Positions 2,227-54,064 of a stretch of 54,064 nucleotides of DNA are shown here, one piece after another. Below the pieces are notes generated by a model. That model was not told where the DNA came from, ran no database searches, and worked only from the letters and a program-made list of their open reading frames with translations. The stretch is from a virus: positions 1 through 54,064 of IMG/VR virus record IMGVR_UViG_3300047472_000443, one strand, 5' to 3'. Made by a program: the position numbers and the translations under genes. Positions within the stretch are counted from its first letter, which is position 1. The number at the start of each line of letters is the position of its first letter.

Positions 2227-2279
2227 TTATTGCGTATGTTTCGCTTATTTCACTTATTGCGTTTATGTCGCTTATTACC
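2227..2279. promoter_or_regulatory. AT-rich direct repeats upstream of the toxin-antitoxin pair
   Basis: Two imperfect tandem units of 26-27 bp, each beginning TTATTGCG and containing TATGT(TT)CGCTTATT, end 27 bases before the antitoxin ATG. The AT-rich composition contrasts sharply with the surrounding DNA. Position and repetition suggest the operator/promoter region that toxin-antitoxin complexes autoregulate; that role is inferred. Confidence 0.45.
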
Positions 2280-2306
2280 TATAAACCTCTCGGAGGGAGA
2301 CACACC

Positions 2307-2810
2307 ATGGCCGCGCTCGCGATCAAGCTCGACGACGTACACGAGCCGAGTTCTGAAGACATTGAAGCGGCGCGGACCGCTGCCCGCCAGCTGTCGACCT
2401 TCAACAAAGGCAAGCCGGTCAGCTTTACCATGGCCCCAAGCTCGGAAGGCGAAGGCGAAGCCAAGCCCGACCCGATCAGCTTACCTGCCAACATTTTTCG
2501 AGTGCTGATCAATATGCTGGTCGAGATGGGTAACGGCAATGCCGTTGCCGTCGTTCCCGTCACTGCTGAACTTACAACTCAACAGGCTGCCGATATTCTC
2601 AATGTGTCGCGACCGCATCTGGTCAAATTGCTTGAGGCCGAAAAGATACCGTTTCGCATGGTCGGAACACATAGGAAACTACGTGCACAAGACGTGCTTT
2701 GCTATCGAGATAAGACCAGCTTTGAGCAGCGTGCTGCCTTGAGTCAGATGGTGAATTTCGATGAAGAGTTTGGTTTGGATGATGAGCCTATAGCGGCGAA
2801 AGACGACTAA
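2307..2810 (+). CDS. Antitoxin, excisionase/HTH type, of a PIN toxin pair
   Basis: A 167-residue protein with a MerR/excisionase-like helix-turn-helix at about 92-140 (LTTQQAADILNVSRPHLVKLLE, then IPFRMVGTHRKLRAQDVLCY). The N-terminal part is probably flexible. Upstream antitoxins of PIN-domain toxins in this architecture bind their promoter through this domain and cap the toxin with another segment, here perhaps the acidic C-terminus. ATG 2307 is chosen because CGGAGGGAG ends 7 bases before it; an in-frame upstream start at 2265 lies in the repeats. The stop overlaps the toxin start (TAATG), so the two are translationally coupled. Confidence 0.75.
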   Translation: MAALAIKLDDVHEPSSEDIEAARTAARQLSTFNKGKPVSFTMAPSSEGEGEAKPDPISLPANIFRVLINMLVEMGNGNAVAVVPVTAELTTQQAADILNVSRPHLVKLLEAEKIPFRMVGTHRKLRAQDVLCYRDKTSFEQRAALSQMVNFDEEFGLDDEPIAAKDD

Positions 2811-3385
2811 TGCTTATCGGGCGCTACTCGGCATTCCTGGACGCAAACGTCCTCCACCCGGCTTTCCTGCGGGGGGCGTTGCTCTGGTTTGCTGAGGAGC
2901 TCCTTTTCCGACCGGCTTGGTCGGCCGCGGTCCTTGAGGAATGGCAGCGCAGCCTTTTGCGGAGGCTGCCGGATCTTACCGCCGAAAAGCTCGATCTCGT
3001 CCAAGCTCAAATGACCAAGGCGTTTCCGGATGCCGAGATATTTGGGTTCGAAAAAATTACCGAGGCTTTGGATCTGCCCGACGTTGACGACCGCCACGTG
3101 CTGGCAGCGGCGATTGTCGGAAAAAGTCACGGGATAATCACTGCCAATTTGAAGCACTTCCCGGCGGATAAGGTTTCGCCGTTCGGCATCGAGGTCGTTC
3201 ACCCTGACGATTTTATCGTCAATATCGTTGACCTTCACCCAGCCAGAGCTCTGGCTGCCTGCAAGCGGCATCGCGCAGCCATGTCAAAGTCGATGCCTTC
3301 GCCTGATGAATATCTTCAACGGTTCGTCGCCTGCGGCTTGGTCCAAGCTCACGCTCGTCTCGCCGGCAATAAGGATCTTTTATAG
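2810..3385 (+). CDS. PIN-domain toxin (putative ribonuclease)
   Basis: A 191-residue PIN-domain protein, expected to be a Mg-dependent RNase that the product of the preceding gene neutralises. Visible motifs are the first conserved aspartate in AFLDANVL (D11), the acidic pair in DVDDRHVLAAAI (about 91-94), and the final block GIITANLKHFPAD, where N replaces the more common D. It begins at the ATG that overlaps the antitoxin TAA by one base. The C-terminal 50 residues extend beyond the minimal PIN fold. It may stabilise the element in the host or defend it against competing phages; the sequence does not show which. Confidence 0.8.
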   Translation: MLIGRYSAFLDANVLHPAFLRGALLWFAEELLFRPAWSAAVLEEWQRSLLRRLPDLTAEKLDLVQAQMTKAFPDAEIFGFEKITEALDLPDVDDRHVLAAAIVGKSHGIITANLKHFPADKVSPFGIEVVHPDDFIVNIVDLHPARALAACKRHRAAMSKSMPSPDEYLQRFVACGLVQAHARLAGNKDLL

Positions 3386-3747: not shown

Positions 3748-5037
3748 TCAGTGCGGCAAGAGCTCAGCGGCCAGCAAAAGGCCCTGCGCGATTATATCGG
3801 CCCATTCCTGTCCGATCGCTCGCCGGCGCTCGATCTGCTGATCGCGGTCGTAGGCAGCGGCGACGTCGTTCGCGAGCTGGTGCGCGAGCATCAGCTCGAT
3901 CGTATCGAGATCCTCCTGGCATTTCCGCGCGCGCGCCAGCGCCTTCATCGTGGTGCTGAACGTCGCCCGCCAGCCGTGCGGCACATGCCGTCCGGCAAAG
4001 CCGGCCTCGTTGTACATCGCGCCGATTGTGTTCTTGCCGATCGGCTTGCCGGCCGCCGCGGGAAACGCAAGCTCGCCGGCGCTAACGCCTGCGCCGGCGA
4101 GCGATCGCGCTGCGCGCAGGACGTCGACTGCCTGGCGCGATAGGGGCACAAGGTGGTCGAAATCAGCGAGGGCTTTTTTGCCCACGCTGAGCTTCATCCG
4201 CGCGGCCGGGATCCGCCATAATGGCGAGGACGGGGATGATACCCGATCTTCCCAATCGATTCCTTCAAATTCTTCCCAGATCGCCCCACGAACCACCGCA
4301 GCGCGCACCGAGGTGAGCGCGAGGAACCGCGACGCCAGCTTGACGATCGCCGGCGCACTGGACGCCTCGGCCGATACCAGGACCGCGCGCGCCTGATCCG
4401 GATCCGTCAGCGCCGGTTGCCGGCGCTTCGGCCGCGCCGCCTTCAGCGCCTTCTTCGTCGGTACCGCGGGATTTGTCTCGAGCAGTCCCTCGCCAATCGC
4501 GAAGTCGAAAACCGCGACGATGCGCGTCTGAACGCGCTTCGCGGTCTCGAGCGCTCCGCGCGCTTCGATCGCACGGATCGCGGCGAGCACGATCGGCGTC
4601 TTGATCATGCAAATTTGCAAGGCGCCGATCGTCGGGAAGACATCGCGCTCCAGGCTCTCGATGACGTCGGCAGCATGTACCGTCGACCACCCGCCCAGCT
4701 GCTCGGCATGCCACGCCCGCGCGAGCTGCTCGAATGTGCCATCGTCGGTATTGGCAGCGGCGGCCGCCTCGATCGTGCGCTGGCGGGCGCCGGCGGGATT
4801 GACGCCTTGGCGCAGCTGCCGGCGCGCGTCGTCGCGCAGCTCGCGCGCCTGGGCGAGAGAGATCTCAGGCACGCGGCCGAACACGAGCAGCTGCTCCTTC
4901 CCGCGATAGCGGAAAGACATGCGCATCGTCCTGGTACCGGTCGACGCGACGTGGAGGAAAAGCCCTCCACCGTCGGCGATCTTGTAGGCGCGATCGCGCG
5001 GCTGCGCCGCGCGGATCCCAGCCGCGGTCAGTTTCAT
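3748..5037 (-). CDS. P4-type tyrosine integrase
   Basis: A full-length 429-residue phage integrase. It has the N-terminal DUF4102 arm-binding domain (MKLTAAGIRAAQPRDRAYKI...), a core-binding domain (about 100-200) and a catalytic domain. The catalytic set is visible: R245 in LTSVR, H354 and R357 in PHGWR, H386 in LAHQ, and the tyrosine nucleophile Y396 in AAAYDR. Enzymes of this family usually recombine at tRNA 3' ends. No attachment site is obvious next to it, and the same region carries a large serine recombinase at the other end. Its 3' end is duplicated as a dead fragment at 2015-2098. Confidence 0.9.
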   Translation of the reverse strand: MKLTAAGIRAAQPRDRAYKIADGGGLFLHVASTGTRTMRMSFRYRGKEQLLVFGRVPEISLAQARELRDDARRQLRQGVNPAGARQRTIEAAAAANTDDGTFEQLARAWHAEQLGGWSTVHAADVIESLERDVFPTIGALQICMIKTPIVLAAIRAIEARGALETAKRVQTRIVAVFDFAIGEGLLETNPAVPTKKALKAARPKRRQPALTDPDQARAVLVSAEASSAPAIVKLASRFLALTSVRAAVVRGAIWEEFEGIDWEDRVSSPSSPLWRIPAARMKLSVGKKALADFDHLVPLSRQAVDVLRAARSLAGAGVSAGELAFPAAAGKPIGKNTIGAMYNEAGFAGRHVPHGWRATFSTTMKALARARKCQEDLDTIELMLAHQLANDVAAAYDRDQQIERRRAIGQEWADIIAQGLLLAAELLPH

Positions 5038-34927: not shown

Positions 34928-37123
34928 TCAGGCGAGGCGGCGACCGATGCGCTTGCCGTCGGGGCGTCCGCGGTGGCGGGCGGCAGGCAAAGTCGACGTC
35001 GGCTCGGCCGCGGCGGGTTCGGCGCGGGCCGGCTCGTTGGTTGGCGGTATGGCGGAGGTCGCCGGAAACTTATCGGGCGCGGCGGATGCCGGCGCTGACG
35101 ATGGCGTCTGCAGCTCGATCGTCATGCGGGCGCCGACCTTTTCCGCTTCGCGATTCAGCTTGAAGCCGCGGTGCATGAGGCCGTGAAGCGCCGCATAAGC
35201 GTAGACGCGGATATCGAGCGCCTCATTGGCGCGGCCGTCGGGCAACGTCCAAACGCGATATTTGTGGCCGCCGCGTTCCTTGATCTCGATCCGCTCAGAC
35301 GTGAGCTGGGCGAAATATCCGGCGTCGCGATCGACGCTGAAGTGCATGTAACCGGGACCGGGGCGGTCCCGCGGCAGGTAGCTGAGAAGGATCGTGTCCT
35401 TAGCGGCGTTGACGCCAAGCACGATGGGCCGGAACGTCTTCTTCGAACGCGAGGTCGGCCGCTTCGTCGGCCAGACCGGATTGCGCTGGCCGCTCGTTGC
35501 AGACTCGCCGCGTATCGCCCAGATTTGGCGGCCGAGGTTCGCCTTGGCGAAATCATAGACGGGCGTGGCATGGTGGCCGCCGGAGTCGATACAGGCGGCG
35601 GCGATCGCGAACGGGCGACCATCGGCGCGATACCATTTCCGCTTCAGAAACTCGTCGAGTGCTTCCCTGGTCGATGGGTCGGAAAACTCACCGTCGATGA
35701 CGTGATGCTCAATCGACCAGCTTTCCTCATCGCGGCCCCAGCCGACGATCTCGATCTCGACACGATAATCCTGCGTGTCGATGCCGGCGGTGAGGATAGC
35801 GACGCCATCGGGAACTGCTGCGGCCCACACTTCACGGCGGGCGAGCAGCGATTCACCATCGATCTGTTTGCCCGTGTTCTTGCGGTAGGTGAGCGCAAGT
35901 TGGGTGTTGTAGAACGATAGCTTGCCGTCTTCATCGACCGCCGCCAGCCATTTGGCAGCCATCTCGGGCGGGGCATCATTCGCCCACGGGCTATAAAGCT
36001 TCGACGCCTGAAAGCCGGCATGCTTGTTCGAGACGGCCCAGCCGCTGCAATGCCGGCATTTCGCGCGATAGACGGCGTGCCGGCGGCCGGCCCACCAATG
36101 CCAGACGCGGTCGACCGATCCGGTATCGGCCTCGGCCCACGCGACAGCGTAGGATTCGAGTGGCCGCTGCAGCTCGCCGCAGCATTCGAACGACCTGGTC
36201 TGGTGCCAGCGGATCGTACCGAGGGCGCGCTGACGCTGCCCCTCTGACCAGCCGACACCGCAAGCCTCGCAATAAATCCGCGCCGTTTCCGGGCGGTGGG
36301 TCTTGCCGTCCTTGCCCTTGTCCCAATGAACATGAGCGAAGAAGTCGAGGAACTGGCGATGATCGCATTCCGGGCAGGTAACCGATGCGCGGCGCTGGTC
36401 CGACTGGTTGTACCGGACTTCGATCTTGCTTTCGCCGGTGATCGTCGGCGAGCAAACGCATATGCTGAGCGAATTGGATTCGAAGGTCGCCAGCCGCTCT
36501 TCGGCGATGACGATCGGGTCACCTTCCTTGATTGGAAGGTATTTATCGACCTCGTCGCACAGCAGGATCCGGATCGGCCGGCGGGCCAGATTGTCCGGGC
36601 TGCCGGCGCCGACGATCCCGAGGAAGCCGCCCGGGAAGGCCTTGTAATCGATCGTGTCGCCCGACGACCGGCTTTTCGAAGAGCCGATCAGCCCCTTCAG
36701 CGCCGGCGTCGCCTTGATGAAGGGCGCAACGCGCTCCTTCGAAAACTGCAGTGCCGCCGCGTCCTTCGGCTGGACGATCAGCATCGGGCAGGGATCGAGG
36801 TGGGCGTGGAAGCCCACGATGTTCTCGATCAGCGTAGATTTCAGCAGCTGGGTCGCCACCATGGCGCTCAGCTTGCGGACGCCGGGCTCGGTGACGGCGA
36901 GCATGGGCCCGCGCGCGATCTCGACGCGGCCGGTGCGATACCGGCCCGACGTGCTGCCCGCTTCCTTGGCGAGCCTGCGGTAGCGATCAGCCCAATCGGG
37001 CAGGCTGATCCTTGGTGGTGGTGTCCAGCCGCGGCGGCCGGCACGTCTCAGTCGATCAGTCTTCGCCGTCCGCGGTAAAGTCGAGATCTGGCTCGCCGAG
37101 CTCCTCGAGCTGCTGGTGAACAT
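34928..37123 (-). CDS. Terminase large subunit (GpA family)
   Basis: A 731-residue lambda gpA-family terminase. It carries the N-terminal ATPase region (GPMLAVTEPGVRKLSAMVATQLLKST, in place of a classical Walker A; Walker B-like RILLCDEVDKY at about 183-193), zinc-type cysteines (TCPECDHRQF, YCEACGVGW, CRHCSGW), and a nuclease region (TAGIDTQDYRVEIEIVGWG at about 449-467; IDSGGH). GpA enzymes cut at cos. The start at 37123 overlaps the small-subunit gene by 68 bases with no clear ribosome site, so the true start may be a little downstream. Confidence 0.92.
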   Translation of the reverse strand: MFTSSSRSSASQISTLPRTAKTDRLRRAGRRGWTPPPRISLPDWADRYRRLAKEAGSTSGRYRTGRVEIARGPMLAVTEPGVRKLSAMVATQLLKSTLIENIVGFHAHLDPCPMLIVQPKDAAALQFSKERVAPFIKATPALKGLIGSSKSRSSGDTIDYKAFPGGFLGIVGAGSPDNLARRPIRILLCDEVDKYLPIKEGDPIVIAEERLATFESNSLSICVCSPTITGESKIEVRYNQSDQRRASVTCPECDHRQFLDFFAHVHWDKGKDGKTHRPETARIYCEACGVGWSEGQRQRALGTIRWHQTRSFECCGELQRPLESYAVAWAEADTGSVDRVWHWWAGRRHAVYRAKCRHCSGWAVSNKHAGFQASKLYSPWANDAPPEMAAKWLAAVDEDGKLSFYNTQLALTYRKNTGKQIDGESLLARREVWAAAVPDGVAILTAGIDTQDYRVEIEIVGWGRDEESWSIEHHVIDGEFSDPSTREALDEFLKRKWYRADGRPFAIAAACIDSGGHHATPVYDFAKANLGRQIWAIRGESATSGQRNPVWPTKRPTSRSKKTFRPIVLGVNAAKDTILLSYLPRDRPGPGYMHFSVDRDAGYFAQLTSERIEIKERGGHKYRVWTLPDGRANEALDIRVYAYAALHGLMHRGFKLNREAEKVGARMTIELQTPSSAPASAAPDKFPATSAIPPTNEPARAEPAAAEPTSTLPAARHRGRPDGKRIGRRLA

Positions 37124-37703
37124 ACGGCTTCAGCGCCTCCACCACGACCGCGGTCTCTAAGCCGAGATCCGCGGCGAGGAGCGGGCCGATACGCGTTGGC
37201 CACCCTTCCCAGGCATCTCGAGCCTGGCGGCGATCGTCGAAGAGGATGCTCTCGGCGGTCTCGATATCGACCAGCTTGCCGGCGTCCTTTTGCGCAGAGA
37301 GCAGATGCTTCAGCGCGAGTGCGTTTTCCTTGATCGCGTTGGCTTGGACCTTCGATCGAAACTTGCCCTCGAGCAGTTGCTCGATGAAGCCGCCGGCGAT
37401 CTCGTCATCGATCTCACCGTCCTCGGCCGCGGCGCGCAGATCGGTGACAACCTCGTCAACCGCTGCGGCAACTTCTGGCCGGATCTTGCGCCGGTTGCCG
37501 GTTGCGGTTGCAGGAGCTGGTTGCCCCTCCCCCGCCGCGACTTTGAAACGGCCCAGGCCAGCGTTGCGCAAGCGTTTGTCCGACGCTTTCACGTCGACCA
37601 GATCGCCGGAAAAAACCAACGCTCCCCGTGACTTCCATTTTGCGGCTGCTTGTCGGCTCGCGCCGTGCGTCGCCGCGAAAGCGGTGAGCGAGAGAAGCGT
37701 CAT
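37056..37703 (-). CDS. Terminase small subunit
   Basis: A 215-residue DNA-recognition subunit placed directly before the GpA gene. The N-terminal helix-turn-helix (LTAFAATHGASRQAAAKWKSRG) is followed by a linker, a helical oligomerisation region (about 75-150) and an acidic C-terminus (LEELGEPDLDFTADGED), which would contact the large subunit. Confidence 0.8.
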   Translation of the reverse strand: MTLLSLTAFAATHGASRQAAAKWKSRGALVFSGDLVDVKASDKRLRNAGLGRFKVAAGEGQPAPATATGNRRKIRPEVAAAVDEVVTDLRAAAEDGEIDDEIAGGFIEQLLEGKFRSKVQANAIKENALALKHLLSAQKDAGKLVDIETAESILFDDRRQARDAWEGWPTRIGPLLAADLGLETAVVVEALKPYVHQQLEELGEPDLDFTADGED

Positions 37704-37824
37704 CCCCCTCCCCTCCGCGCAACCGGTTGCCCCCCCGCAACCACTTTTTCAGGTTCGTAGCTGGGCAGAAGCCGGGGGGGTGCAATACCCTCGATCGGGC
37801 AGGGCCGCGGAAGGACCCGTCGAA

Positions 37825-37855
37825 GGGGGGTGGGGGGGGTCAGGCAGGGAGGGGG
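37825..37855 (+). other. G-run cluster (G-quadruplex motif) upstream of terminase
   Basis: Runs of 6, 8, 3 and 5 guanines are separated by loops of 1, 7 and 1 bases, which meets the usual quadruplex pattern; another run of seven G lies at 37775-37781. It covers the end of the small gene 37840-38169 and the leader of the terminase small subunit. A cos or packaging-initiation site would be expected in this neighbourhood, but I cannot identify one. Confidence 0.5.
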
Positions 37856-38169
37856 TCGGCGCCGGGCAGGTCGGGCGGCGTCCGATGGAGGACGCGACAG
37901 CTCGGGGCGCCGGGCGGCGGGGCGATGAGGGTGGCGGCGGCGGTGAAGGTCGGGTCGCCTGGGACCATCAGATCGATGGGCTCGCCGGGAGCCAAGGGGC
38001 TGCCGTCCCATGCGGCAAGGCGCCGCGGCCGCGGCATGCTAGGGACGAACGGCATGAAGTGAATGCGCTCGACGCCCCAGCGGTCGCCGTGGACGGCCGT
38101 CACGTAGACCTCACGGCTGAACAGCGAGGCGATCGCGCCAACCAAATGAACGATAAACCAAGGGATCAT
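37840..38169 (-). CDS. Small hypothetical protein upstream of terminase
   Basis: A 109-residue ORF with a hydrophobic start (MIPWFIVHLVGAIASLF) that could be a membrane anchor or signal, and a proline-rich C-terminus that includes the G-run cluster. It overlaps the upstream gene by about 59 bases, more than usual here. Confidence 0.45.
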   Translation of the reverse strand: MIPWFIVHLVGAIASLFSREVYVTAVHGDRWGVERIHFMPFVPSMPRPRRLAAWDGSPLAPGEPIDLMVPGDPTFTAAATLIAPPPGAPSCRVLHRTPPDLPGADPLPA

Positions 38170-38443
38170 GAGGAGCTCTAGGTCGGGAGGACGCAGTGAG
38201 GACGTCGTATTGCGCGGGCGTGATGATCACGATGTCGCCCAAAACGATCACGTCAGTCGGTTCGCGGTACGTGAAGGTCATATGGGGCGGATGCTTCCGC
38301 CTCCATGCTTTGCGGGTGCCTCGACGCCCTTGTCTCTTCGGCGGCACTTTCGGCCGGACCCAAGCCAGGGGCAGATCTCGCGCCGTGCGCATCTGCTCCT
38401 GAGCACTTTTAACAACGAACCGAAGGCCCCCGAACATCATCAT
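38111..38443 (-). CDS. Small hypothetical basic protein
   Basis: A 110-residue ORF whose ATG overlaps the TGA of the preceding gene (a GTG three bases upstream is an alternative). The middle is very basic (KVPPKRQGRRGTRKAWRRKH), followed by a beta-like stretch (EPTDVIVLGDIVIITPAQYD). Unknown role. Confidence 0.45.
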   Translation of the reverse strand: MMMFGGLRFVVKSAQEQMRTARDLPLAWVRPKVPPKRQGRRGTRKAWRRKHPPHMTFTYREPTDVIVLGDIVIITPAQYDVLTASSRPRAPHDPLVYRSFGWRDRLAVQP

Positions 38444-39066
38444 CACCGTGCGGTAGCGAGCGCTTTGCGCATCGCGTTGTCGAATTCCCGCGCCGCATTG
38501 GCGCGGATGTAAGCCTGCGCCCGCTCGTAGAACGGGAAATGCTTCGGCGCCGGCGTCGTGTCGTCGAAGGCAACGAGCAGCTTCAAATGGCCCTTGCCAG
38601 CCTTGCCGCCGGGGCGCTGCCAGATGCCGCTTATAGCGCGGCCGCTCTTCGTGACGATCTTGCCCTTGAAGACGCTGGGCTTCGCCATCAGCCGCGCGAT
38701 CGTGTTGCGCGGCAGGTTGCCATATTGGTTGGTACGCTGGTCGACCGGCACCAGCATCGCCTGCTTGGTACCGAGTGATCGCGGGCCACCGTCCACATAG
38801 GGCTCGAGATATTCGGACTGGATGTCCTTGGGAAACACGATCGCGACCAGATCCGACTTCTTCGCCGGCACGATCGCGAAAGCCTTTTGCGTGAATGGCG
38901 TCGGGCTGTCGAACGTCTCGACAACCTGCTCGGCCTCGGCCAGCTGAACGCCCTTGGCGAGGCCGGTCAGCGCCAGGGCGGACGCAAATGGAACCTGCTT
39001 GGCATGGAGGGCAACGAAGGCGCGCTGCAGGGGCTTCAGATCGCCCTTGATGCTGACGGCGATCAC
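38443..39066 (-). CDS. Phage protein resembling minor tail protein Z
   Basis: A 207-residue protein: MIAVSIKGDLKPLQRAFVAL, VPFASALALTGLAKGVQLAE, FDSPTPFTQKAFAI and NQYGNLPRNTIARL. This pattern occurs in prophage proteins often annotated as gpZ-like or simply hypothetical, usually near the terminase. GTG start at 39066 overlaps the upstream stop (GTGA). Confidence 0.6.
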   Translation of the reverse strand: MIAVSIKGDLKPLQRAFVALHAKQVPFASALALTGLAKGVQLAEAEQVVETFDSPTPFTQKAFAIVPAKKSDLVAIVFPKDIQSEYLEPYVDGGPRSLGTKQAMLVPVDQRTNQYGNLPRNTIARLMAKPSVFKGKIVTKSGRAISGIWQRPGGKAGKGHLKLLVAFDDTTPAPKHFPFYERAQAYIRANAAREFDNAMRKALATAR

Positions 39067-39239
39067 CGCGTCAGCGCTTCGATCTCGTCCGCCAGCGTAT
39101 CGCGGCGATCATAATAGCGACGCGGATCCGCAAAGTCCTGCTGCAGCCGTTGCACACGTCGCGCTATATCGCGCAGCTCAGCCCGAACTGCGGGCGGAAG
39201 CGGCTCCCGCGCGCAGCTCGGCCGAGACGCGCTACCCAC
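39063..39239 (-). CDS. 58-residue small protein, coiled-coil-like
   Basis: A GTG-start ORF at 39239 that overlaps the end of the preceding small gene. The product is mostly one long helix (VRAELRDIARRVQRLQQDFA then RRYYDRRDTLADEIEALTR). An in-frame ATG further upstream would give a longer N-terminus of non-coding character. Confidence 0.5.
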   Translation of the reverse strand: MGSASRPSCAREPLPPAVRAELRDIARRVQRLQQDFADPRRYYDRRDTLADEIEALTR

Positions 39240-39420
39240 GGAAAACCGAGCCGAGCAGCCGAACCTTGCGCTCGACCGTGATGGTGACACTCGCCACGGC
39301 CAGATTATCCGACTGGAGGCCAGCAAGATGGTCGCAGGCGTCGGAAGCGCTCGAGAACGCGAACGGCGTGGCGCAGCGGCCTTGGCTGTCCACGATCTCG
39401 AAATGCTCCGAGGGTGTCAT
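39232..39420 (-). CDS. 62-residue small protein
   Basis: ATG at 39420 gives MTPSEHFEIVDSQGRCATPF...VASVTITVERKVRLLGSVFRG, a small alpha-beta protein of unknown function. It lies in a run of overlapping small genes between Gam and terminase. Confidence 0.5.
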   Translation of the reverse strand: MTPSEHFEIVDSQGRCATPFAFSSASDACDHLAGLQSDNLAVASVTITVERKVRLLGSVFRG

Positions 39421-39434
39421 GATCGGTGCGTGTT

Positions 39435-39743
39435 TCACTGATGGATTCCGACAAAGCAACGGTAAGCAGCGGCGCCCAGCCCGGCAGCGATCTCCAGCGG
39501 ATGATCCTGTTCGGCCTCATAGCCCAACGCAGCCATCAATTCGCCCAGCAGCGCGACACCGCGGCTGACGGGCGGCACATCATTGTCGTTGGCGCTGCGT
39601 TGCTGACGATCGACGTCGCGGCGGAGCATTTCGATCTGCACGCGCCGCACGAGTCGGATCGCATCGGCCAGATCGACGGGATGCATGGCGCCAAACTGGG
39701 CGACGCGGACCGCGCGCATTTGGCGGGCCCGATAGCTGCCCAT
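39435..39743 (-). CDS. Hypothetical protein downstream of Gam
   Basis: A 102-residue helical protein. Its ATG overlaps the Gam stop (TGATG). Contains LADAIRLVRRVQIEMLRRDV and a tail ending in C-V-G. No family is recognised. Confidence 0.55.
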   Translation of the reverse strand: MGSYRARQMRAVRVAQFGAMHPVDLADAIRLVRRVQIEMLRRDVDRQQRSANDNDVPPVSRGVALLGELMAALGYEAEQDHPLEIAAGLGAAAYRCFVGIHQ

Positions 39744-40270
39744 CAGGCAGCCTTGCCGATCGGAGCGCCTTCGATCCGCTCGAGCACGAATTGCTCGGCC
39801 TGATCGATGCGAAAGCCGATCTCCGCCAGCCTGCCGGGCCGATCCGTTTTGAGCTTGGCGGCGATCGCCTGGCGATTGAGCGCCGGCGTCATACGAACAA
39901 ACTGCGTTGCCAGCCGCGCGCCCTTGAGGGCCACGATCGCAGCCGCATCATCTGCGAAATCGAAGGAGACCTTGGCCGAGCCGGTCTTGCTGCCGATCAT
40001 GCAGCCGCCGAGCTCGGCGGTCTTGCGCTTGCCGGCCAGATGCTGGGCGCCGTCTTTCTTCCACCAAGGCTCGATCGCGGTGCGGAGCTCCTCGAGCTCC
40101 TTCAGATGCGGCTCGATCTTTTTGTCGGCGGCGGCATTGATGCCGGCGAGATCCTCGGCGCGCTGCGCCTCGGCCGCGGCGATCGTCGCCCCGATGGAAG
40201 CGAAGCGCTCGAGCAGCGGCAACGCCGCCGCGAGGGTACGCGGAACGCGCACCGTGACCGGTTTCGTCAT
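39743..40270 (-). CDS. gam: Mu Gam-like host-nuclease inhibitor
   Basis: A 175-residue Gam-family protein, which binds double-strand DNA ends and shields them from RecBCD/AddAB; the family is related to eukaryotic Ku. Evidence is the long helical N-terminus (IGATIAAAEAQRAEDLAGIN...KKIEPHLKELEELRTAIEPW) and the beta block TAELGGCMIGSKTGSAKVSF, characteristic of Gam. ATG 40270 has AGGA 6 bases upstream. It follows directly after a terminator hairpin, so it is probably expressed by antitermination or read-through from the promoter at 40384-40410. Confidence 0.8.
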   Translation of the reverse strand: MTKPVTVRVPRTLAAALPLLERFASIGATIAAAEAQRAEDLAGINAAADKKIEPHLKELEELRTAIEPWWKKDGAQHLAGKRKTAELGGCMIGSKTGSAKVSFDFADDAAAIVALKGARLATQFVRMTPALNRQAIAAKLKTDRPGRLAEIGFRIDQAEQFVLERIEGAPIGKAA

Positions 40271-40283
40271 GCGGGATCCTGGA

Positions 40284-40313
40284 AAAGAAAAAGCCCGCCG
40301 GGTGGGGCGGGCT
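40284..40313 (-). terminator. Leader terminator before gam
   Basis: On the minus strand AGCCCGCC and GGCGGGCT (40313-40306 and 40299-40292) form an 8-bp GC stem with a 6-base loop, followed by TTTTTCTT (40291-40284). It is a good intrinsic terminator, located 14 bases before the gam ATG. Confidence 0.8.
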
Positions 40314-40383
40314 TCGAAGGGTTCTGCAGGGAGGCCGGTCACGGTGTGCCGATTCGGACGCAGTGAGGCACAGAAGCAATTTC

Positions 40384-40410
40384 GCTATATATTCTGCCGA
40401 TCGGCGTCAA
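40384..40410 (-). promoter_or_regulatory. Candidate late promoter
   Basis: On the minus strand TTGACG (40410-40405) and an AT-rich -10 (TATAGC at 40389-40384, spacer 15; TATATA overlaps it) lie at the very end of the upstream gene. A transcript would start near 40377 and meet the terminator about 65 bases later. Confidence 0.45.
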
Positions 40411-41360
40411 GTCGTCTCGTTTGCCGCCTCGACGGCATCCGTGCCGAACACATAGCCCCACGGCCAGCCGAGCCGCACCTCGAGCGGAACACCGGCATAG
40501 GTCAGCCCCTCGATCGCTGCGAGCTCTACCGGATCAGCCGGGCAATCGACGTCGAGTTCCTTGAAAAGCCGCATCAGCGTGCGTGGCGCGATCAGGATGC
40601 AGCTGACGACGGCACCGGTGCCGCTATGGGCGGCGCGGAGCAGCTGCTCGTCGAGATCCGCGCAGATCGATCCGCGCCGTTCGGTCTCCGGCTCGGCGGC
40701 CGCCGGTCCTGCCGATGTCGGTACCGACTCCAGTCTCGGCGCCGGAGGTGCATCGATCGGCAGCAGTGACGCGATTCCGCCATGCAACAGGTTGGCGCAG
40801 AACTTGAGCGCGATCCGCGTCTTATTCTCGGCCTGACTACGCTGGAGGTCGAAGACCTGGGTGGCGATGCCGCTGATCACTTCGCCGCGGCAGACGATCG
40901 CCTCGAATATGGTCACATAGCGCGCGGGGATGAAGCTCCTGCCGAAATGATAATCCTCGCGGGCATGCATCTGTGCCGAATAGCGCGCGACCAGATCGAA
41001 ACAGCCATCGCCGCCGCCACTGCCACCGCCTTCGTAATTGGCGGTACATTTGATCGTGTCGAAGCCGAGCGCGTAGCGGTCCGCATACCATTCGCAGGCT
41101 GCCGCCTCGTGCGGCTCGAGGACGCCCGACCGTTTCAACCGCTCGATCGATGTCAGTCGCCGGACCGTTTCCTTGATCGGCGTCGGGCCGTTGCCGATCG
41201 CTGGCACCTGCGCCAGCTCGAGGTGATCGGTGTTGCGCTGCGCATCCGGAACGCCGGCGACGCGCGCTGCGTCGACGATTTTCAGGTGATGACGCTCAAT
41301 CGCCTTCGCCTGCCGCTGCTCCATCGTTTGCGGCGCCGGCCGCTTCTTCGCTTTCCCCAT
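40407..41360 (-). CDS. Phage regulatory protein candidate in the Q position
   Basis: A 317-residue protein of unknown family. The start is basic (MGKAKKRPAPQTMEQRQAKA), a central region (about 95-190) has ERLKRSGVLEPHEAAACEWY, a Gly-rich loop with cysteines (KCTANYEGGGSGGGDGCFD), and the helical RGEVISGIATQVFDL...ALKFCANLL. The central part faintly recalls DUF6456/RinA-like phage regulators. It sits directly before a promoter-terminator pair and the late genes, as lambda Q does; the antiterminator role is inference from position only. It overlaps the winged-helix gene by 65 bases. Confidence 0.5.
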   Translation of the reverse strand: MGKAKKRPAPQTMEQRQAKAIERHHLKIVDAARVAGVPDAQRNTDHLELAQVPAIGNGPTPIKETVRRLTSIERLKRSGVLEPHEAAACEWYADRYALGFDTIKCTANYEGGGSGGGDGCFDLVARYSAQMHAREDYHFGRSFIPARYVTIFEAIVCRGEVISGIATQVFDLQRSQAENKTRIALKFCANLLHGGIASLLPIDAPPAPRLESVPTSAGPAAAEPETERRGSICADLDEQLLRAAHSGTGAVVSCILIAPRTLMRLFKELDVDCPADPVELAAIEGLTYAGVPLEVRLGWPWGYVFGTDAVEAANETT

Positions 41361-41778
41361 GCCGCTCGCTCCCCGCTGCATGGTCAATCTGATCCAGCAG
41401 GGCCGCCAAGTCGTGTTCGCAATTTGTCCCGATCGGAACGGGCGTATAGGCTTTGGCGAGCGGCGCGGCCTTCACCCTCTGCCATTCGATCCGGCCGCCG
41501 CGCGATATGACCGCCAGCTCGAGCTCGAGGTCGGAAAGATTGGCAGCGCGGTCGGTAAGCATGGACCCACGCGGGACACCGGGTTGCACCTCGAGGAGGC
41601 CTTGATGCTGAAGGCGGCGCAGCGACCGCCCGACTTCGGTGCGGCGCACACCACTGTCGTTGGATATCTCGCTCAGGCTCGGTGCGGCGCCGCTGCGACG
41701 GAAATGACGGCGGATTGCTTCGATCACGCGAAGGTCGGCCGAGGCGCTTCGCCGCAGCGATAGATTGCCAGCATCCAT
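41296..41778 (-). CDS. Winged-helix transcription regulator
   Basis: A 160-residue protein with a clear winged helix at about 15-75 (ADLRVIEAIRRHFRRSGAAP, SLSEISNDSGVRRTEVGRSL, RRLQHQGLLEVQPG). ATG 41778 is preferred to GTG 41796 because CGGAG lies 4 bases upstream. It heads the leftward lytic operon and probably controls the late switch together with the next gene. Confidence 0.65.
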   Translation of the reverse strand: MDAGNLSLRRSASADLRVIEAIRRHFRRSGAAPSLSEISNDSGVRRTEVGRSLRRLQHQGLLEVQPGVPRGSMLTDRAANLSDLELELAVISRGGRIEWQRVKAAPLAKAYTPVPIGTNCEHDLAALLDQIDHAAGSERHGESEEAAGAANDGAAAGEGD

Positions 41779-41850
41779 GATCTCCGTCAGCTGCACGCTG
41801 CGAAGATAATGGTTTATCGCTCTGAATGCACGGCCCGCCGCCCGATGCGA

Positions 41851-42150
41851 TCAAGCCGTCGCTACGGCGGCCGGCGCGATCGCCATCTGCAGGTCGAGCG
41901 CCTTCAGCACCTTACGCAGCGTCTCGAGCGTCGGGTTACCCTCGTCCGAAAGCGTGCGCTAGAGCGCCTGTCGCTTCACCCCGGTCTCTTCGGCGATCGC
42001 CGACATGCCCCGGGCGCGGGCAATGATGCCGGGGGCATGGGCCAGATAGCCGGGGTCACCTTGCGCGATCGCGTCGCGCAGCAACTCGGCCTGGTCTTCC
42101 GGATCGCGGAAATGCTCCGCGCTGTCATAGTCGATGAGCTTAGTCGCCAT
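41851..42150 (-). pseudogene. HigA-type antitoxin gene interrupted by an amber codon
   Basis: The first 63 codons (MATKLIDYDSAEHFRDPEDQ...GIIARARGMSAIAEETGVKRQAL) match the addiction-module antidote family (COG3636-like). TAG at 41959-41961 stands exactly where the family has a conserved tyrosine (RExLYKALS). The same frame then continues with RTLSDEGNPTLETLRKVLKA...LDLQMAIAPA to TGA at 41851. One base change (TAT/TAC to TAG) explains it. The fragment lacks half of the HTH domain, so it should not repress unless amber is suppressed. Confidence 0.8.
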
Positions 42151-42405: not shown

Positions 42406-43239
42406 TTACCTCTCGAGCGTGGTGCGAGAATTACTGACGCGCAGCCAAGCATCAAGGGCTTGTGCGGCATCATGGGTCATCACAACTTCTTTGTCCCAGT
42501 TCGTCGTCCTGAACACGCCATACCGGTTGTACTCTCGCATAAACTGATCTGCGAGGAAAAGTCTGGCCGTTGTAGTGTACTCGCCCACCGCGAACTCGCG
42601 AGCAGAAACGAATTTTACGGGCCGAAAATCGACGTTGCGGCCGTCATCGCGCATCGAAGCGTCATAGATAAAGAGGGTGGTTCCGTCTGCCATATCGGAT
42701 TTGCTAACCGCCGCAGCCGTGATGCGAAACGTGCCGTAGAGCGCGTCTTGCTCGGCTTCCTGCTGCCGAGCAAACCTAAGCGGGGGATAATCTGGAAAAG
42801 AGATCATGATCGGTCCAACAGGGTCCCGCTGAGCCAATTGACCCCGCAAATCATCGAGAGAGAGAATTACCCGGCCTGACATGGCAGCCGCGGCGTCCGC
42901 CATCGCCTCTTTGATCATCGAAGCGCCATGCTCGCTTAACGGTAATGCCGTGGCTATCCCACTTGCAACCAGGGCGCCGACCATCGGTTTCGCGAATTCG
43001 AATATCGCGATCGCCGCTCCGGTGGTTCTGATGGGGCTGCCCCTGAATTCATCGGCTGCCCATCTAAACCATAACTTGAAGGACCCGGCCTCGGCCCGGA
43101 CAAAGTACACTTCCGGATTGACGGCCCCAAAGCTTGTTGCCGCCCCGTTCAGCGCCTTGGCCAAGGGCAACAATTCGTCTGCCGTCATCCCGCGCTGAGA
43201 ATCAAGGCCGCCAAACTCGATCAGAATTGCGTCATTCAT
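42406..43239 (-). CDS. Unknown protein, second of a tandem paralog pair downstream of the repressor
   Basis: A 277-residue protein. The N-terminal domain (about 1-70: MNDAILIEFGGLDSQRGMTA...LPLAKALNGAA...VRAEAGSFKLWFRW) is clearly related to that of the product at 43428. A hydrophobic segment follows (about 75-105, TTGAAIAIFEFAKPMVGALV). The C-terminal half (about 125-275) is beta-rich with PIMISFPDYPPLRFARQQEA and DNA-independent character. GGGGAGG lies 5 bases before ATG 43239. It belongs to the repressor-led leftward unit, so it should be made in the lysogen. No family is recognised. Confidence 0.65.
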   Translation of the reverse strand: MNDAILIEFGGLDSQRGMTADELLPLAKALNGAATSFGAVNPEVYFVRAEAGSFKLWFRWAADEFRGSPIRTTGAAIAIFEFAKPMVGALVASGIATALPLSEHGASMIKEAMADAAAAMSGRVILSLDDLRGQLAQRDPVGPIMISFPDYPPLRFARQQEAEQDALYGTFRITAAAVSKSDMADGTTLFIYDASMRDDGRNVDFRPVKFVSAREFAVGEYTTTARLFLADQFMREYNRYGVFRTTNWDKEVVMTHDAAQALDAWLRVSNSRTTLER

Positions 43240-43349
43240 CATCGCCTCCCCACCCGATAAGCTTCGAGCCACGTGTCCATCTGCTCGACTGCGACCTCGA
43301 CCAACTTAAAATGCGCAGGCTCAAGGCAACCTCCTGCGTTCTCCTGCAC
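43239..43349 (-). CDS. 36-residue ORF between the paralogs
   Basis: GTG at 43349 (preceded by GGGGGAG) opens a short ORF (MQENAGGCLEPAHFKLVEVA...MDTWLEAYRVGRR) whose TGA overlaps the tandem ATG codons of the downstream paralog (ATGATG). Stop-start overlap and amphipathic composition favour a translated coupling ORF. No other support. Confidence 0.3.
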   Translation of the reverse strand: MQENAGGCLEPAHFKLVEVAVEQMDTWLEAYRVGRR

Positions 43350-43427
43350 CTCCCCCAGGCGCTCCGGTTGTCACGCTGAAGATCAGCATCAGGCTCAGCG
43401 CCCCCGCCAAAATTGGGCCGCTATCCC

Positions 43428-44360
43428 TTACCGAAACGCCGCCCTGCCGGTCACGACGAACACGCCATCTGCGGCTACATATTCGACTGGTACATCACCG
43501 ACCGTAATGATCCCACGGGTCCCGGCCTCGTGAGCCGATAGAATGACACCCGTAACCGAAACAGGCGGCGCGTCGGGGCCTGGCATTTCCAGCGTGGAGC
43601 GCCAGACCACAACGACTGTTACCGGCTCTGTTTGCTCGTCTCCGCTTTCGTCGATGGTAAGTGCCTCAATTGTTCCCAAAGCGGCGTCCACTTTTTTCGA
43701 CCCATCGATCATGACATCGCTAAACGGCGCATGGATTTGTAATAATCCTGTAAAACGATGCTCATGATCCAGTCGATTATTTGCGATTCTCGCCTTTGGC
43801 CTGGATGCGAGCAAACCCGGCCCGCGGTAAGAAGGCATTTCGATCCGAACGCTCGGGCAGTCCGGAACGCGGAATACCACCGACCCAGCACCCAACTTGA
43901 GCACCGTAACGCAAAAGTTACTCGCAGCGTGCCTCGCGTTCTCAGGCGCTGATTTGCCAGACTGGACAATGGCAATAATCTCCGGGGAGGCGTTCGTGGC
44001 GGGCGCCTCCGGCGCCGCGTATCCATGGAACAGCATTGACCCGACCAAAGCATGGTAGGCCCCGGCAAGGGCTTTAGCGGCGGTTCCGGTCACAGTTGCC
44101 GCACCAACGAGAACGGCTAGTCCTTTGCCCGTTTCCGTCAGCGGGTCTTTTAGAAATTTCCGTTGCATGACCTTGAAGGCCAATTTTAGCGAACCACGCT
44201 CCGCAGCGACCAAATGTAATGTCAGCGCCGGTGATTTATCAAAGTGTGCTAACTGGATAGCGCTTTTCAGCGCATCTGCCAGCGAAGCGAAATCTTCTGG
44301 CGAAATCCCCCGTTCCGTCGGGTCGATATCGACAAATTCAATTATAATGACGTCGTTCAT
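43428..44360 (-). CDS. Unknown protein, first of a tandem paralog pair downstream of the repressor
   Basis: A 310-residue protein. N-terminal domain about 1-72 (MNDVIIIEFVDIDPTERGIS, PEDFASLADALKSAIQ, LVAAERGSLKLAFKV) shares at least MND..I.IEF, D..RG, LA.AL, AE.GS.KL.F with the gene at 42406. A hydrophobic stretch at about 78-112 (GLAVLVGAATVTGTAAKALA) could insert in a membrane. The rest is beta-rich, with a C-terminal barrel-like region (VTGVILSAHEAGTRGIITVG). It begins 59 bases after the repressor stop on the same strand. AT content is higher than in late genes, which suggests recent acquisition. Confidence 0.65.
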   Translation of the reverse strand: MNDVIIIEFVDIDPTERGISPEDFASLADALKSAIQLAHFDKSPALTLHLVAAERGSLKLAFKVMQRKFLKDPLTETGKGLAVLVGAATVTGTAAKALAGAYHALVGSMLFHGYAAPEAPATNASPEIIAIVQSGKSAPENARHAASNFCVTVLKLGAGSVVFRVPDCPSVRIEMPSYRGPGLLASRPKARIANNRLDHEHRFTGLLQIHAPFSDVMIDGSKKVDAALGTIEALTIDESGDEQTEPVTVVVVWRSTLEMPGPDAPPVSVTGVILSAHEAGTRGIITVGDVPVEYVAADGVFVVTGRAAFR

Positions 44361-44419: not shown

Positions 44420-44821
44420 TCAGTCGCCCTTGCCTTCTTTCGAAAGTTTGAAATCCTCAGCGTCGGGCTCGTGCAGCGTGCCCCCGGCCGGCGGCCCAGC
44501 CTTCATGGCACGGGCGACCTGCAGCAGGGCGCGGCGATCGGCAGCAGATAGACCTTCGAAGTGATCCACCAGTTCGCGGGTGTCGGCCTTGAGGTCTGGC
44601 ACGGCGGGAAGATCCGCGCCGGGGTCGTCCGTATCGCCCATCAAATAGGCGGGCGTTGTCCCGAGTTCACGCGCAATTCGGTGAAGGTGTTTTGACCCTT
44701 GGGTTTCGCCGGAAAGTAGCCGGGAAATCGATTGCTGACTGACATGAACACGGCGCGCCAGCTCGCTCTGCGAAAGATCGCGCTCACTCATTCTTGTCCG
44801 CAGGCGGCCGGGATCGAGCAC
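44420..44821 (-). CDS. CI-like XRE repressor
   Basis: A 133-residue protein with an N-terminal XRE helix-turn-helix (LSQSELARRVHVSQQSISRL, about 16-35) and a short C-terminal region (ELVDHFEGLSAADRRALLQV) but no LexA-type peptidase, so induction would not be by RecA self-cleavage. GTG 44821 is needed to include the first helix; ATG 44791 would truncate it. Divergent from the Cro-like gene across a 110-bp operator region. Confidence 0.8.
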   Translation of the reverse strand: MLDPGRLRTRMSERDLSQSELARRVHVSQQSISRLLSGETQGSKHLHRIARELGTTPAYLMGDTDDPGADLPAVPDLKADTRELVDHFEGLSAADRRALLQVARAMKAGPPAGGTLHEPDAEDFKLSKEGKGD

Positions 44822-44931
44822 GGCTAACCTACTTACCCAAAAAGTTGTAGGTCGCGACCACCGTTATCGGTTGACCGACCTACACGCTAGGTTGTAGCTC
44901 CGCGACATCAATCGAATCGGAGCCCGAATCG
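44822..44931. promoter_or_regulatory. Divergent operator/promoter region of the immunity switch
   Basis: GTTGTAGGTCG (44844-44854) and CGACCTACAC (44876-44885) form an imperfect inverted repeat. Related half-sites appear as AACCTACTT (44826-44834) and AGGTTGTAG (44889-44897). A rightward -35 TTGACC at 44871-44876 overlaps them. These are likely the operators for the repressor and the Cro-like protein. Confidence 0.6.
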
Positions 44932-45384
44932 ATGAGCGTCGCCGCCGTAACCTTCCCCAATGCTGCTGAAGCCCTGCGGGCGGCCGTCGATCTGATCGGT
45001 TCCCAAGCGGCCACCGGACGTCTTTTGGGGGTAAGTCAGCAAACCGTCGGCAAATGGCTCGAGCTCGGAAAATCGCTTCCGCCCAAGCATGTCCTCACGG
45101 TTGAGGAGGCCACCGGGATCTCCCGTTACGATCTCGCGCCCGATATCTATCCTCGCCCGGGCGCGGAAACGGCCGACCCCAGCCTGTTCGATCGCTTCGG
45201 CGGGCCACCGGCGATGGCAGAGGCGCTCGATCTTCCGCTCGCCACGATCATCCGCTGGCAACAGGACCGGCTCATTCCGGCCGATCAGCAGCCCCACGTA
45301 TTGCGGACTGCGGCGCAGCTCGAAATCGCGGTGACAGCCGAGGACGTCGTGTTCCCCTTCCCCGCCGATCGGCAAGCTGCTTGA
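44932..45384 (+). CDS. Cro/YdaS-like regulator with two HTH modules
   Basis: A 150-residue protein. The first half (AVDLIGSQAATGRLLGVSQQ, TVGKWLELGKSLPPKHVLTV, then ISRYDLAPDIYP) matches YdaS/Cro-type regulators. The second half (LFDRFGGPPAMAEALDLPLA, TIIRWQQDRLIPADQQPHVL) reads as another Cro-like helix-turn-helix. A tandem fusion of this kind could bind two adjacent half-sites as a monomer. First gene of the rightward early operon. Confidence 0.75.
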   Translation: MSVAAVTFPNAAEALRAAVDLIGSQAATGRLLGVSQQTVGKWLELGKSLPPKHVLTVEEATGISRYDLAPDIYPRPGAETADPSLFDRFGGPPAMAEALDLPLATIIRWQQDRLIPADQQPHVLRTAAQLEIAVTAEDVVFPFPADRQAA

Positions 45385-52338: not shown

Positions 52339-52604
52339 GCCTTCACCCGGCAATCGAACAAATGGTGCGCACATTTGCCCGCGGGCTTGCTGCGGCGGAT
52401 GTTGCGCGCGCCACTACTGATTCCCGGAGCCCCGCATGCGCTGCGCCATCTACGCCCGTTTCTCAACCGACCTCCAAAATCCCAGATCGGCCGAGGACCA
52501 AGCGCGGATCTGCCGCGAGCGCGCAGAGCGCGAAGGCTGGACAGTCTTCGAAACCTACCTCGATCTCGCCATCTCGGGATCCAGCAACAGGCGACCCGGC
52601 ATGA
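52335..52604 (+). CDS. Small protein overlapping the recombinase start
   Basis: ATG at 52335 (ATGA overlap) gives MSLHPAIEQMVRTFARGLAA, a plausible helical start. The frame runs on to 52604 inside the recombinase gene with proline/serine-rich nonsense-like sequence. Either a small early gene truncated by the recombinase, or a genuine overlap. Confidence 0.35.
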   Translation: MSLHPAIEQMVRTFARGLAAADVARATTDSRSPACAAPSTPVSQPTSKIPDRPRTKRGSAASAQSAKAGQSSKPTSISPSRDPATGDPA

Positions 52605-54064
52605 CGCAGATGCTCGCGGATGCCGCGTCCGGCTGCTTCGACATCGTGATCGCTGAGGATCTCGACCGGATTTCCCGCGATCAGGAGGATATCGCCGGCA
52701 TCTACAAAAGGTTTCGCTTCGCCGGCGTCCAGCTGTTCACCTTGAGCGACGGTCAGGTCAGCGAGATCCACATCGGCCTCAAGGGCACGATGAACGCGCT
52801 CGAGCTGCGCAAGATGGCCGACAAGATCCGCCGCGGCCAGAAGAGCGCGGTCGAGCGTGGAAAGATCTCCGGCGGTATCTGCTACGGCTACCGGGCGGCG
52901 CCGGTGCTGCACGAGGACGGCAGGCTTGAGCGCGGGCTGCGCGAGATCGTGCCGGAAGAAGCCGAAGTGGTCCGCAGGATCTACCGCGAGTTTCTCAACG
53001 ATCGCAGCCCAAAGGCAATCGCGCACGGGCTCAATGCCGACCGCATCCCCTCGCCGATGGGCGGTGAGTGGCGCGCGCCGGCGATCACCGGCTCGCGCGG
53101 GCGGCTGATCGGCGTGCTTCGCAACCCGATCTACTCCGGGCGCTTCGCCTACAATCGCGTGCGCATGCTCACGGATCCGCAAAGCCGGAACCGCGTCTCG
53201 CGGCTCAATGATCGGGCTGACATCGTGTGGAACGACGTTCCCGAACTCGCGATCGTCGCCCCGGCCGACTGGCAGGCGGTCCAGGAGCGGATCGATGCCG
53301 CCGCCGAGCTCCCGCTTTACGTGCGCAGCAAGATCCGCCCGCGCCGATTGCTGTCCGGCCTGGTGAAGTGCGGTGAGTGCGGCGGAAATTACACGGTCAT
53401 CGGCTCGGAGCGCTGGGGCTGCTCACGTCATCGCGAAGCGGGCACCTGCTCCAATGGACGTCGCATCGCCACGCACGAACTCGAGCAGCGCGTATTGGCC
53501 GGTCTGAAGCAAAAGCTGCTCTCGGCCGAGGCCGTGGATATCCTCGTGCGGCAATACCACACGGACCGGCAAGCGGAGCTGAAGCGGGTTGCGCGCACCA
53601 GGTCGGCGATCGATCTGCGTCTGCAGGCGGCCGAGGCGGCGATCAAACGGCTGGTGGCGGCGATCGCCGACGGCGCCGCGGGCTTTGCCGAGATCGAGCA
53701 GGTACTGCGGGAGAAGAAATCCGAGCGCGACGCGCTCAAGGCCGATCGTGAAGAGCTGGCAGCCGCCGCGGTGATCGCGCTCCACCCGCAAATCGCGGAA
53801 ACCTATCGGGCGATGATTTCATCGCTCTCCCTGACAACGGGAAATGCAGAAGCTGACCACGACCTTGCGGTGCAAATCCGCGCGCTGGTGGACACGATCA
53901 CGATTCGGCCAACCGAAAGGGGGCCGCTCGACATCGACGTTCTGGGATCGCTGCAGGCTGTCCTGGATATGGCAAACCACTCCCGGCCCGCTCCAAGGGG
54001 AACGGGCCGGGTGGTTGTGCTGGTAGCGGAGGAGGGACTTGAACCCCCGACACGCGGATTATGA
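52436..54064 (+). CDS. Large serine recombinase (integrase)
   Basis: A 542-residue serine recombinase. The resolvase domain has nucleophile S10 in YARFSTDLQ, then RPGMTQMLADAASGCFDIVI and EDLDRISRD. The recombinase domain covers about 150-270 (GICYGYRAAP, KAIAHGLNADRIPSPMGG). A zinc ribbon lies at about 312-340 (CGECGGNYTV...CSRHREAGTC). A coiled coil (about 375-440) sets the direction of recombination. The last 13 residues, VAEEGLEPPTRGL, and the stop are antisense to a tRNA 3' half, so the true C-terminus depends on which attachment site is occupied. It is the most likely integrase of the 45-kb phage. Confidence 0.9.
   Translation: MRCAIYARFSTDLQNPRSAEDQARICRERAEREGWTVFETYLDLAISGSSNRRPGMTQMLADAASGCFDIVIAEDLDRISRDQEDIAGIYKRFRFAGVQLFTLSDGQVSEIHIGLKGTMNALELRKMADKIRRGQKSAVERGKISGGICYGYRAAPVLHEDGRLERGLREIVPEEAEVVRRIYREFLNDRSPKAIAHGLNADRIPSPMGGEWRAPAITGSRGRLIGVLRNPIYSGRFAYNRVRMLTDPQSRNRVSRLNDRADIVWNDVPELAIVAPADWQAVQERIDAAAELPLYVRSKIRPRRLLSGLVKCGECGGNYTVIGSERWGCSRHREAGTCSNGRRIATHELEQRVLAGLKQKLLSAEAVDILVRQYHTDRQAELKRVARTRSAIDLRLQAAEAAIKRLVAAIADGAAGFAEIEQVLREKKSERDALKADREELAAAAVIALHPQIAETYRAMISSLSLTTGNAEADHDLAVQIRALVDTITIRPTERGPLDIDVLGSLQAVLDMANHSRPAPRGTGRVVVLVAEEGLEPPTRGL
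53999..54016 (-). repeat. Inverted copy of the block at 761-778
   Basis: GGAACGGGCCGGGTGGTT is the exact reverse complement of 761-778. After two bases it continues GCTGGTAGCGG, which is close to the reverse complement at 747-758. The two window ends therefore share a partial sphingomonad-like repeat in opposite orientation. Confidence 0.6.
54021..54064 (-). tRNA. 3' half of a tRNA with anticodon CAT (partial)
   Basis: The reverse complement reads U33, anticodon CAT, AA, anticodon stem TCCGC, variable GTGTC, T-arm GGGGG-TTCAAGT-CCCTC, acceptor CTCCGCT, A73 and CCA, exactly positions 33-76. The T-stem pairs completely (one G-T). Elongator methionine or lysidine-isoleucine tRNA cannot be told apart without the 5' half, which lies past the window. 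The serine recombinase stop codon occupies U33-C34-A35 on the opposite strand. This is the likely attachment site. Confidence 0.85.

Follow-up and report, generated by a model that had tools for sequence, protein, structure and literature searches.

Tandem paralogous genes behind a CI-like repressor in a Sphingomonas-type phage: prophage cargo with a probable remote link to the LAPAL/40A superfamily

The pair and its surroundings

What do two adjacent genes, placed behind a phage repressor as rexA and rexB are in lambda, do for the phage that carries them? The question is raised by an IMG/VR virus record (IMGVR_UViG_3300047472_000443), the 54,064 nucleotides of which were analyzed in full and are called the window below. 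Its terminase shares 69-84% identity with the counterparts in the nearest relatives, which include Sphingomonas and Novosphingobium prophages, and the window is best explained as a temperate Sphingomonas-type phage carrying the pair, P0002 and P0001, as cargo. The order on the minus strand is CI, a gap of 59 bp, P0002 (43428-44360, 310 aa), a gap of 188 bp, and P0001 (42406-43239, 277 aa). Coordinates, strand, lengths and order of both genes had been given correctly in a first-pass annotation made from the sequence, which had also placed the pair in the rexAB position; it indeed lies directly downstream of CI and on the same strand. Shine-Dalgarno-like sequences precede both genes (for P0001, GGGGAGG before the ATG at 43239).

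The CI-like repressor (44420-44821, minus strand, 133 aa, GTG start) was recognized by Pfam HTH_3 (E 2.1e-10) and by PHROG repressor families; orthologs occupy the equivalent place in syntenic phages, and the gene is presumed to be the first of the lysogeny operon. A Cro/YdaS-like regulator (44932-45384, plus strand; Pfam YdaS, E 8.6e-20; P22_Cro, E 1.6e-7) diverges from it, and the control region between the two (44822-44931) contains a 9-nt perfect inverted repeat (44846-44854 / 44876-44884) that is operator-like and may function as an operator. On the other side, the cargo slot is bordered by a LexA-type winged-helix regulator (41296-41796, minus strand; LexA_DNA_bind, E 6.6e-8); its homologs lie past the slot in the relatives L003/L007 and L008, and similar genes are present in other relatives. 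Elsewhere, the element has both a tyrosine integrase and a large serine recombinase (window 3748-5037 and 52436-54064, the latter at the far right end). Near the left end (2265-3385, plus strand), two neighboring genes of 181 and 191 aa have an unusually low GC3; the second resembles a PIN-type protein, and both are possibly further cargo.

The tandem paralogy proposed for P0001 and P0002 was borne out by BLASTP, which aligned their N-terminal domains (residues 1 to about 75 in P0002) with 34% identity over the first ~100 residues (E 3e-10). In a tblastn search of the window with P0002, P0001 was the only match besides P0002 itself (E 1.9e-8). Both N-domains are built from a strand, a LADAL/LAKAL helix (LAxAL motif) and an AExGSxKLxF strand, and in each protein a hydrophobic segment follows right behind (73-96 in P0001, 80-99 in P0002, with a weaker second one in P0002), as had been described; its mean Kyte-Doolittle value of 1.57 is borderline for a membrane helix. 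The C-terminal halves had been called unlike each other, and no mutual similarity was detected between them by BLASTP; that of P0002 has no detectable relatives. Also the lower GC content was confirmed, with 0.567 in the pair region vs. 0.642 in the late genes and 0.641 in the window, and only about 1% of equal-sized windows were equally low.

In the stretch that separates P0001 from the LexA-type regulator, a HigA-type antitoxin gene (41959-42150, minus strand; dnstrm_HI1420, E 2.3e-10) is interrupted by an in-frame TAG, beyond which similar coding sequence resumes. It has no obvious toxin gene upstream and looks like a decayed addiction module. With this gene just downstream, and with HicB in the corresponding region of a relative, two small adjacent genes could themselves be taken for a toxin-antitoxin or addiction pair. 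We consider this very improbable, as the paralogs are similar in size, unlike type II pairs, are separated by 188 bp, and matched no toxin-antitoxin family.

A variable slot behind the repressor

The region was compared among syntenic relatives (L003/L007, L005, L008, L010, L011, L012, L014, and L018), which retain CI, Cro, the downstream winged-helix gene and the packaging genes with varying completeness. The slot after CI holds a DUF2628-like membrane protein in L003 and L008, a lipoprotein-like gene in L005, and in L010 (3753-4214) and L011 (1319-1780) a protein with a WYL domain (E 3.2e-10) and a hydrophobic segment at its C-terminus, possibly another cargo or defense gene; the slot region of L011 also includes a HicB-containing module. 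Some syntenic Sphingomonas/Novosphingobium phages have nothing obvious there. As the contents differ or are missing among syntenic relatives, the pair is dispensable cargo in a variable slot, and low GC together with the variable slot supports its nature as cargo.

The packaging genes (34928-41796) are encoded on the strand that also carries the pair, and position alone is therefore no proof of lysogenic expression. P0002 and P0001 might belong to the late or DNA-packaging transcripts and serve a lytic or structural function, a reading that we regard as unlikely; since the slot varies or stands empty among phages with terminases of 70-84% identity, the pair is dispensable for virions. A role in lysogeny other than protection deserves more weight, although we hold it to be the case with rather low probability: the pair could provide a host-surface or stress trait or tune the decision between lysis and lysogeny. 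Position and low GC suit any lysogenic cargo, none of the WYL, lipoprotein-like and DUF2628-like proteins in the slot of the relatives has a proven defense role, and RexA of lambda binds and represses PRM (PMC12894663).

Relatives of the N-terminal domain

Close homologs of the pair were found neither in the viral contigs, genome contigs, phages and plasmids searched nor in a sample of 399 genomes representing the nearest host's family, and a profile search with the N-domain gave no homologs in 299 order and 299 phylum genomes. Beyond the window, the pair was absent from all genomes and phages searched. A weak match in L021 lay antisense to a glucose-6-phosphate dehydrogenase-like gene, and many weak matches of P0001 were located on its alanine-rich segment; these were attributed to chance, as were the PDB sequence matches of P0001, the best of which were to YopH phosphatases (E 0.098). 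Nothing convincing for the pair came from strict scans with Pfam, PHROG and PADLOC. NCBIfam matches of P0002 to the flavin reductase FerA and to PepB were rejected, as they were not in register with the N-domain and no other test agreed with them. The AlphaFold model of P0002, built from two sequences, reached a pLDDT of 31 and was dropped as a query for fold searches.

Two genes at this position relative to CI could be divergent homologs of RexA and RexB. Lambda RexA, however, showed no similarity to the pair by BLASTP or by profile comparison (hhalign), and neither protein was matched by the RexA model (PF15969) or the PADLOC RexA/RexB models, which detected the lambda proteins with E 9e-61 or lower; lambda RexA itself scored 1e-97 and 9e-110 in these scans. 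According to hydropathy, the pair also has no four-helix membrane partner of the RexB type. Homology to RexAB is thus barely credible, and the comparison with rexAB in the first-pass annotation applies to the position and not to membership in that system.

A different link was obtained with the NCBIfam model LAPAL_fam (NF053583). It matched P0002 with E 0.029 for the whole protein and E 0.0039 for the N-domain, positions 26-99 being colinear with 26-99, and when it was run against all six frames of the whole window the P0002 place was the sole match (E 5.8e-4). The N-domain of P0002 scored 16.6 bits and did not reach the cut-off of 60; the PDC-S42 model did not match the pair, nor did Pfam DUF7946 (PF25678), with either full proteins or N-domains. 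With a simple HMM made from the two proteins, 40A-type proteins ranked high, but not significantly, and profile-profile comparison with controls was therefore used instead. Against a LAPAL profile of eight sequences, the N-domain of the pair scored 29.4 over 84 colinear columns (hhalign, P 1.4e-4), while none of 300 column shuffles exceeded 17.8, none of 300 block shuffles exceeded 23.2, and the reversed profile scored 10.7. P0002 alone scored 23.0, and 27.9 with DUF7946 members added, vs. maxima of 20.2 and 17.7 for 325 real phage-protein decoys; P0001 alone was not significant against the LAPAL profile. The comparison with the Gram-positive LAPAL branch alone gave P 0.051, and that with the 40A-type profile of phage phi80 gave P 0.065, which is no direct significant match. 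The C-termini of the pair did not match those of LAPAL proteins (hhalign, P 0.26 and 0.41). The hydrophobic segment is equally placed in P0001, P0002, 40A and ORF19 of phage A2.

Judged from these profiles, the N-domain of the pair is probably, though not provenly, a remote homolog of the LAPAL/40A superfamily. As no match rose above a family cut-off, the pair was not filed as a member of LAPAL/PDC-S42. The earlier statement that no family could be recognized holds for strict searches; at the level of the superfamily, a remote link to LAPAL/40A can be assigned.

LAPAL_fam NF053583 corresponds to PADLOC PDC-S42 and to phrog_3243 (ORF19 of phage A2 vs. PDC-S42, E 6.6e-77). PDC-S42 is a candidate defense family of PADLOC; PDC denotes such candidates, a term on which the 2022 PADLOC web-server paper is silent. 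Members include L039-L043, ORF19 of Lactobacillus phage A2, ORF27 of Listeria phage vB_LmoS_188, PMBT6 and Bbif-1, and they share a layout of a strand, a LAPxLLAL helix, a KATxxGSFxVDL strand and a hydrophobic helix (residues 82-108 in the structure model of A2 ORF19, overall pLDDT 72.5); the LADAL/LAKAL and AExGSxKLxF motifs of the pair take the corresponding positions. The gene is flanked by lysin and int in phage A2, adjoins int in PMBT6, and closes the lysis block in other prophages; in vB_LmoS_188 it is located downstream of a CI-type gene and before int, next to a gene for a "putative superinfection immunity protein." NCBI labels NF053583 a "putative phage structural protein" (members L039, L077, L078, and L079), which would favor a late role for the pair. 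We rejected this name, as it clashes with the position beside int/att or downstream of CI and with the identity to PDC-S42. LAPAL and 40A genes adjoin int/att or cI and not structural genes, so the name probably stems from proximity to the late operon, and the same location speaks against a late role for P0002 and P0001.

Gene 40A of phage phi80 (L050, 4953-5819; phrog_5147, Pfam DUF7946 + DUF7947) matched phrog_3243 (5.9e-8) and PDC-S42 (1.1e-5), and in the same kind of profile test it aligned with full-length LAPAL over 87 N-terminal columns (P 6.9e-5). By these sequence comparisons 40A is a relative of LAPAL/PDC-S42, if a remote one. In phi80 it lies between cI and OL, which is the site of rexA/rexB in lambda. 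Genes of the 40A type stand directly after different CI-type repressors in six further loci (L058, L061-L063, L072, and L074) and one small gene away from the repressor in L065 and L070; L060, L051 and L075 are exceptions to this arrangement. Of 5,426 complete Escherichia coli genomes, 62 contain the 40A gene; laboratory strains account for many of these, and the phi80 40A gene is carried by the cloning strains DH5alpha, DH10B and NEB10-beta.

When the A2 ORF19 model was used to search for similar folds, a protein of 184 aa from Mycobacterium phage Pipsqueaks was retrieved (E 1.2e-7). Its length fits gp31 of this cluster N phage, encoded in the variable region between the lysis genes and the integrase, and gp31 corresponds to the C-domain of LAPAL (hhalign, P 1.8e-8; PDC-S42, E 7.3e-13). 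At this place (L099, 4200-5304), the annotated gp31 covers the C-domain only, and the unannotated gap just before it contains an N-domain-like stretch in another frame, which suggests a frameshifted or mis-annotated gene. Lysogen-expressed defenses of cluster N phages map to the variable region (PMC7542560). For gp31 itself, no assignment to a defense role was found. When the LAPAL model was compared with PDB folds, most matches were local ones to OB-folds (SSB, Rfa1; best E 9e-3), and these were set aside because the part of LAPAL able to form such a fold is not common to the pair. A literature search returned no report on DUF7946 or a "LAPAL motif," and nothing on-topic for phi80 40A in lysogens; to our knowledge, there is no published phage-challenge result for any superfamily member.

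Proposed function and comparison with known systems

Two of these results argue against a host-surface, stress or lysis-lysogeny role of the pair, namely that its nearest remote family is a defense candidate of PADLOC and that superfamily members recur at exclusion or defense loci. By analogy of position and build, we propose that P0002 and P0001 may be membrane-tethered paralogs that are expressed in the lysogen and act in superinfection exclusion, a proposal to which we assign an even chance. The position of the genes would permit co-transcription with CI in the lysogen. As paralogs, their N-domains may assemble together, and the hydrophobic helix, given its borderline hydropathy, might tether the complex at the inner membrane. 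The C-terminal parts would then share the labor, recognizing an incoming heterotypic phage and stopping the infection, either by exclusion of the phage or by abortion of the infected cell.

More tentatively, and with the balance somewhat against it, the pair could be a two-subunit, membrane-tethered exclusion system that arose by duplication of a DUF7946/LAPAL-type N-domain, while the C-termini diverged into sensor and effector; it would then belong to a general class of exclusion systems at the rex position (the 40A/PDC-S42 superfamily, including phi80 40A) that is unrelated to RexAB. What stood of the earlier interpretation is the rex-like position, the tandem paralogy and the cargo nature, to which the remote PDC-S42/40A link is added; RexAB membership fell. 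The orphan pair is now tied to a widespread candidate superfamily of prophage cargo, whose members occupy the rex site in phi80, lysogeny or int/att regions in temperate phages of Gram-positive hosts, and the defense region in a mycobacteriophage; the pair may well add a variant to the protective functions that prophages encode. Should the members of this superfamily exclude phages, the site of rex would serve exclusion in general, with unrelated proteins as occupants, and DH5alpha, DH10B and NEB10-beta would already carry a testable member in 40A.

RexAB-type systems (lambda; gp30/31 of Sbash; gp44/43 of CarolAnn; RexABpp of Pseudomonas putida) consist, as does the pair, of two genes in the lysogeny region, and those of lambda, CarolAnn and P. 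putida adjoin the repressor or are co-expressed with it (PMC6426596, PMC12894663). They combine a cytoplasmic sensor of the RexA type with a four-helix membrane protein, whereas P0002 and P0001 are paralogs with one main, borderline hydrophobic segment each. RexABpp provides a precedent for exclusion genes in a comparable position that have no BLAST-recognizable families (PMC12894663). Pipsqueaks gp31 differs from the pair in that its annotated copy has no N-domain and the host is Gram-positive. LAPAL/PDC-S42 proteins are encoded by single genes instead of tandem paralogs, their C-terminal domain is not recognizably common with the pair, and the sequence of the pair falls under every curated cut-off of the family; yet they share a colinear N-domain with a LAPAL-type helix and a GSF-type strand, a hydrophobic helix at about residues 80-105, a length of about 300 aa and a cargo site in temperate phages. 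Phi80 40A, although one gene only, is like the pair in lying directly after cI and in its layout of N-domain, hydrophobic segment and C-domain.
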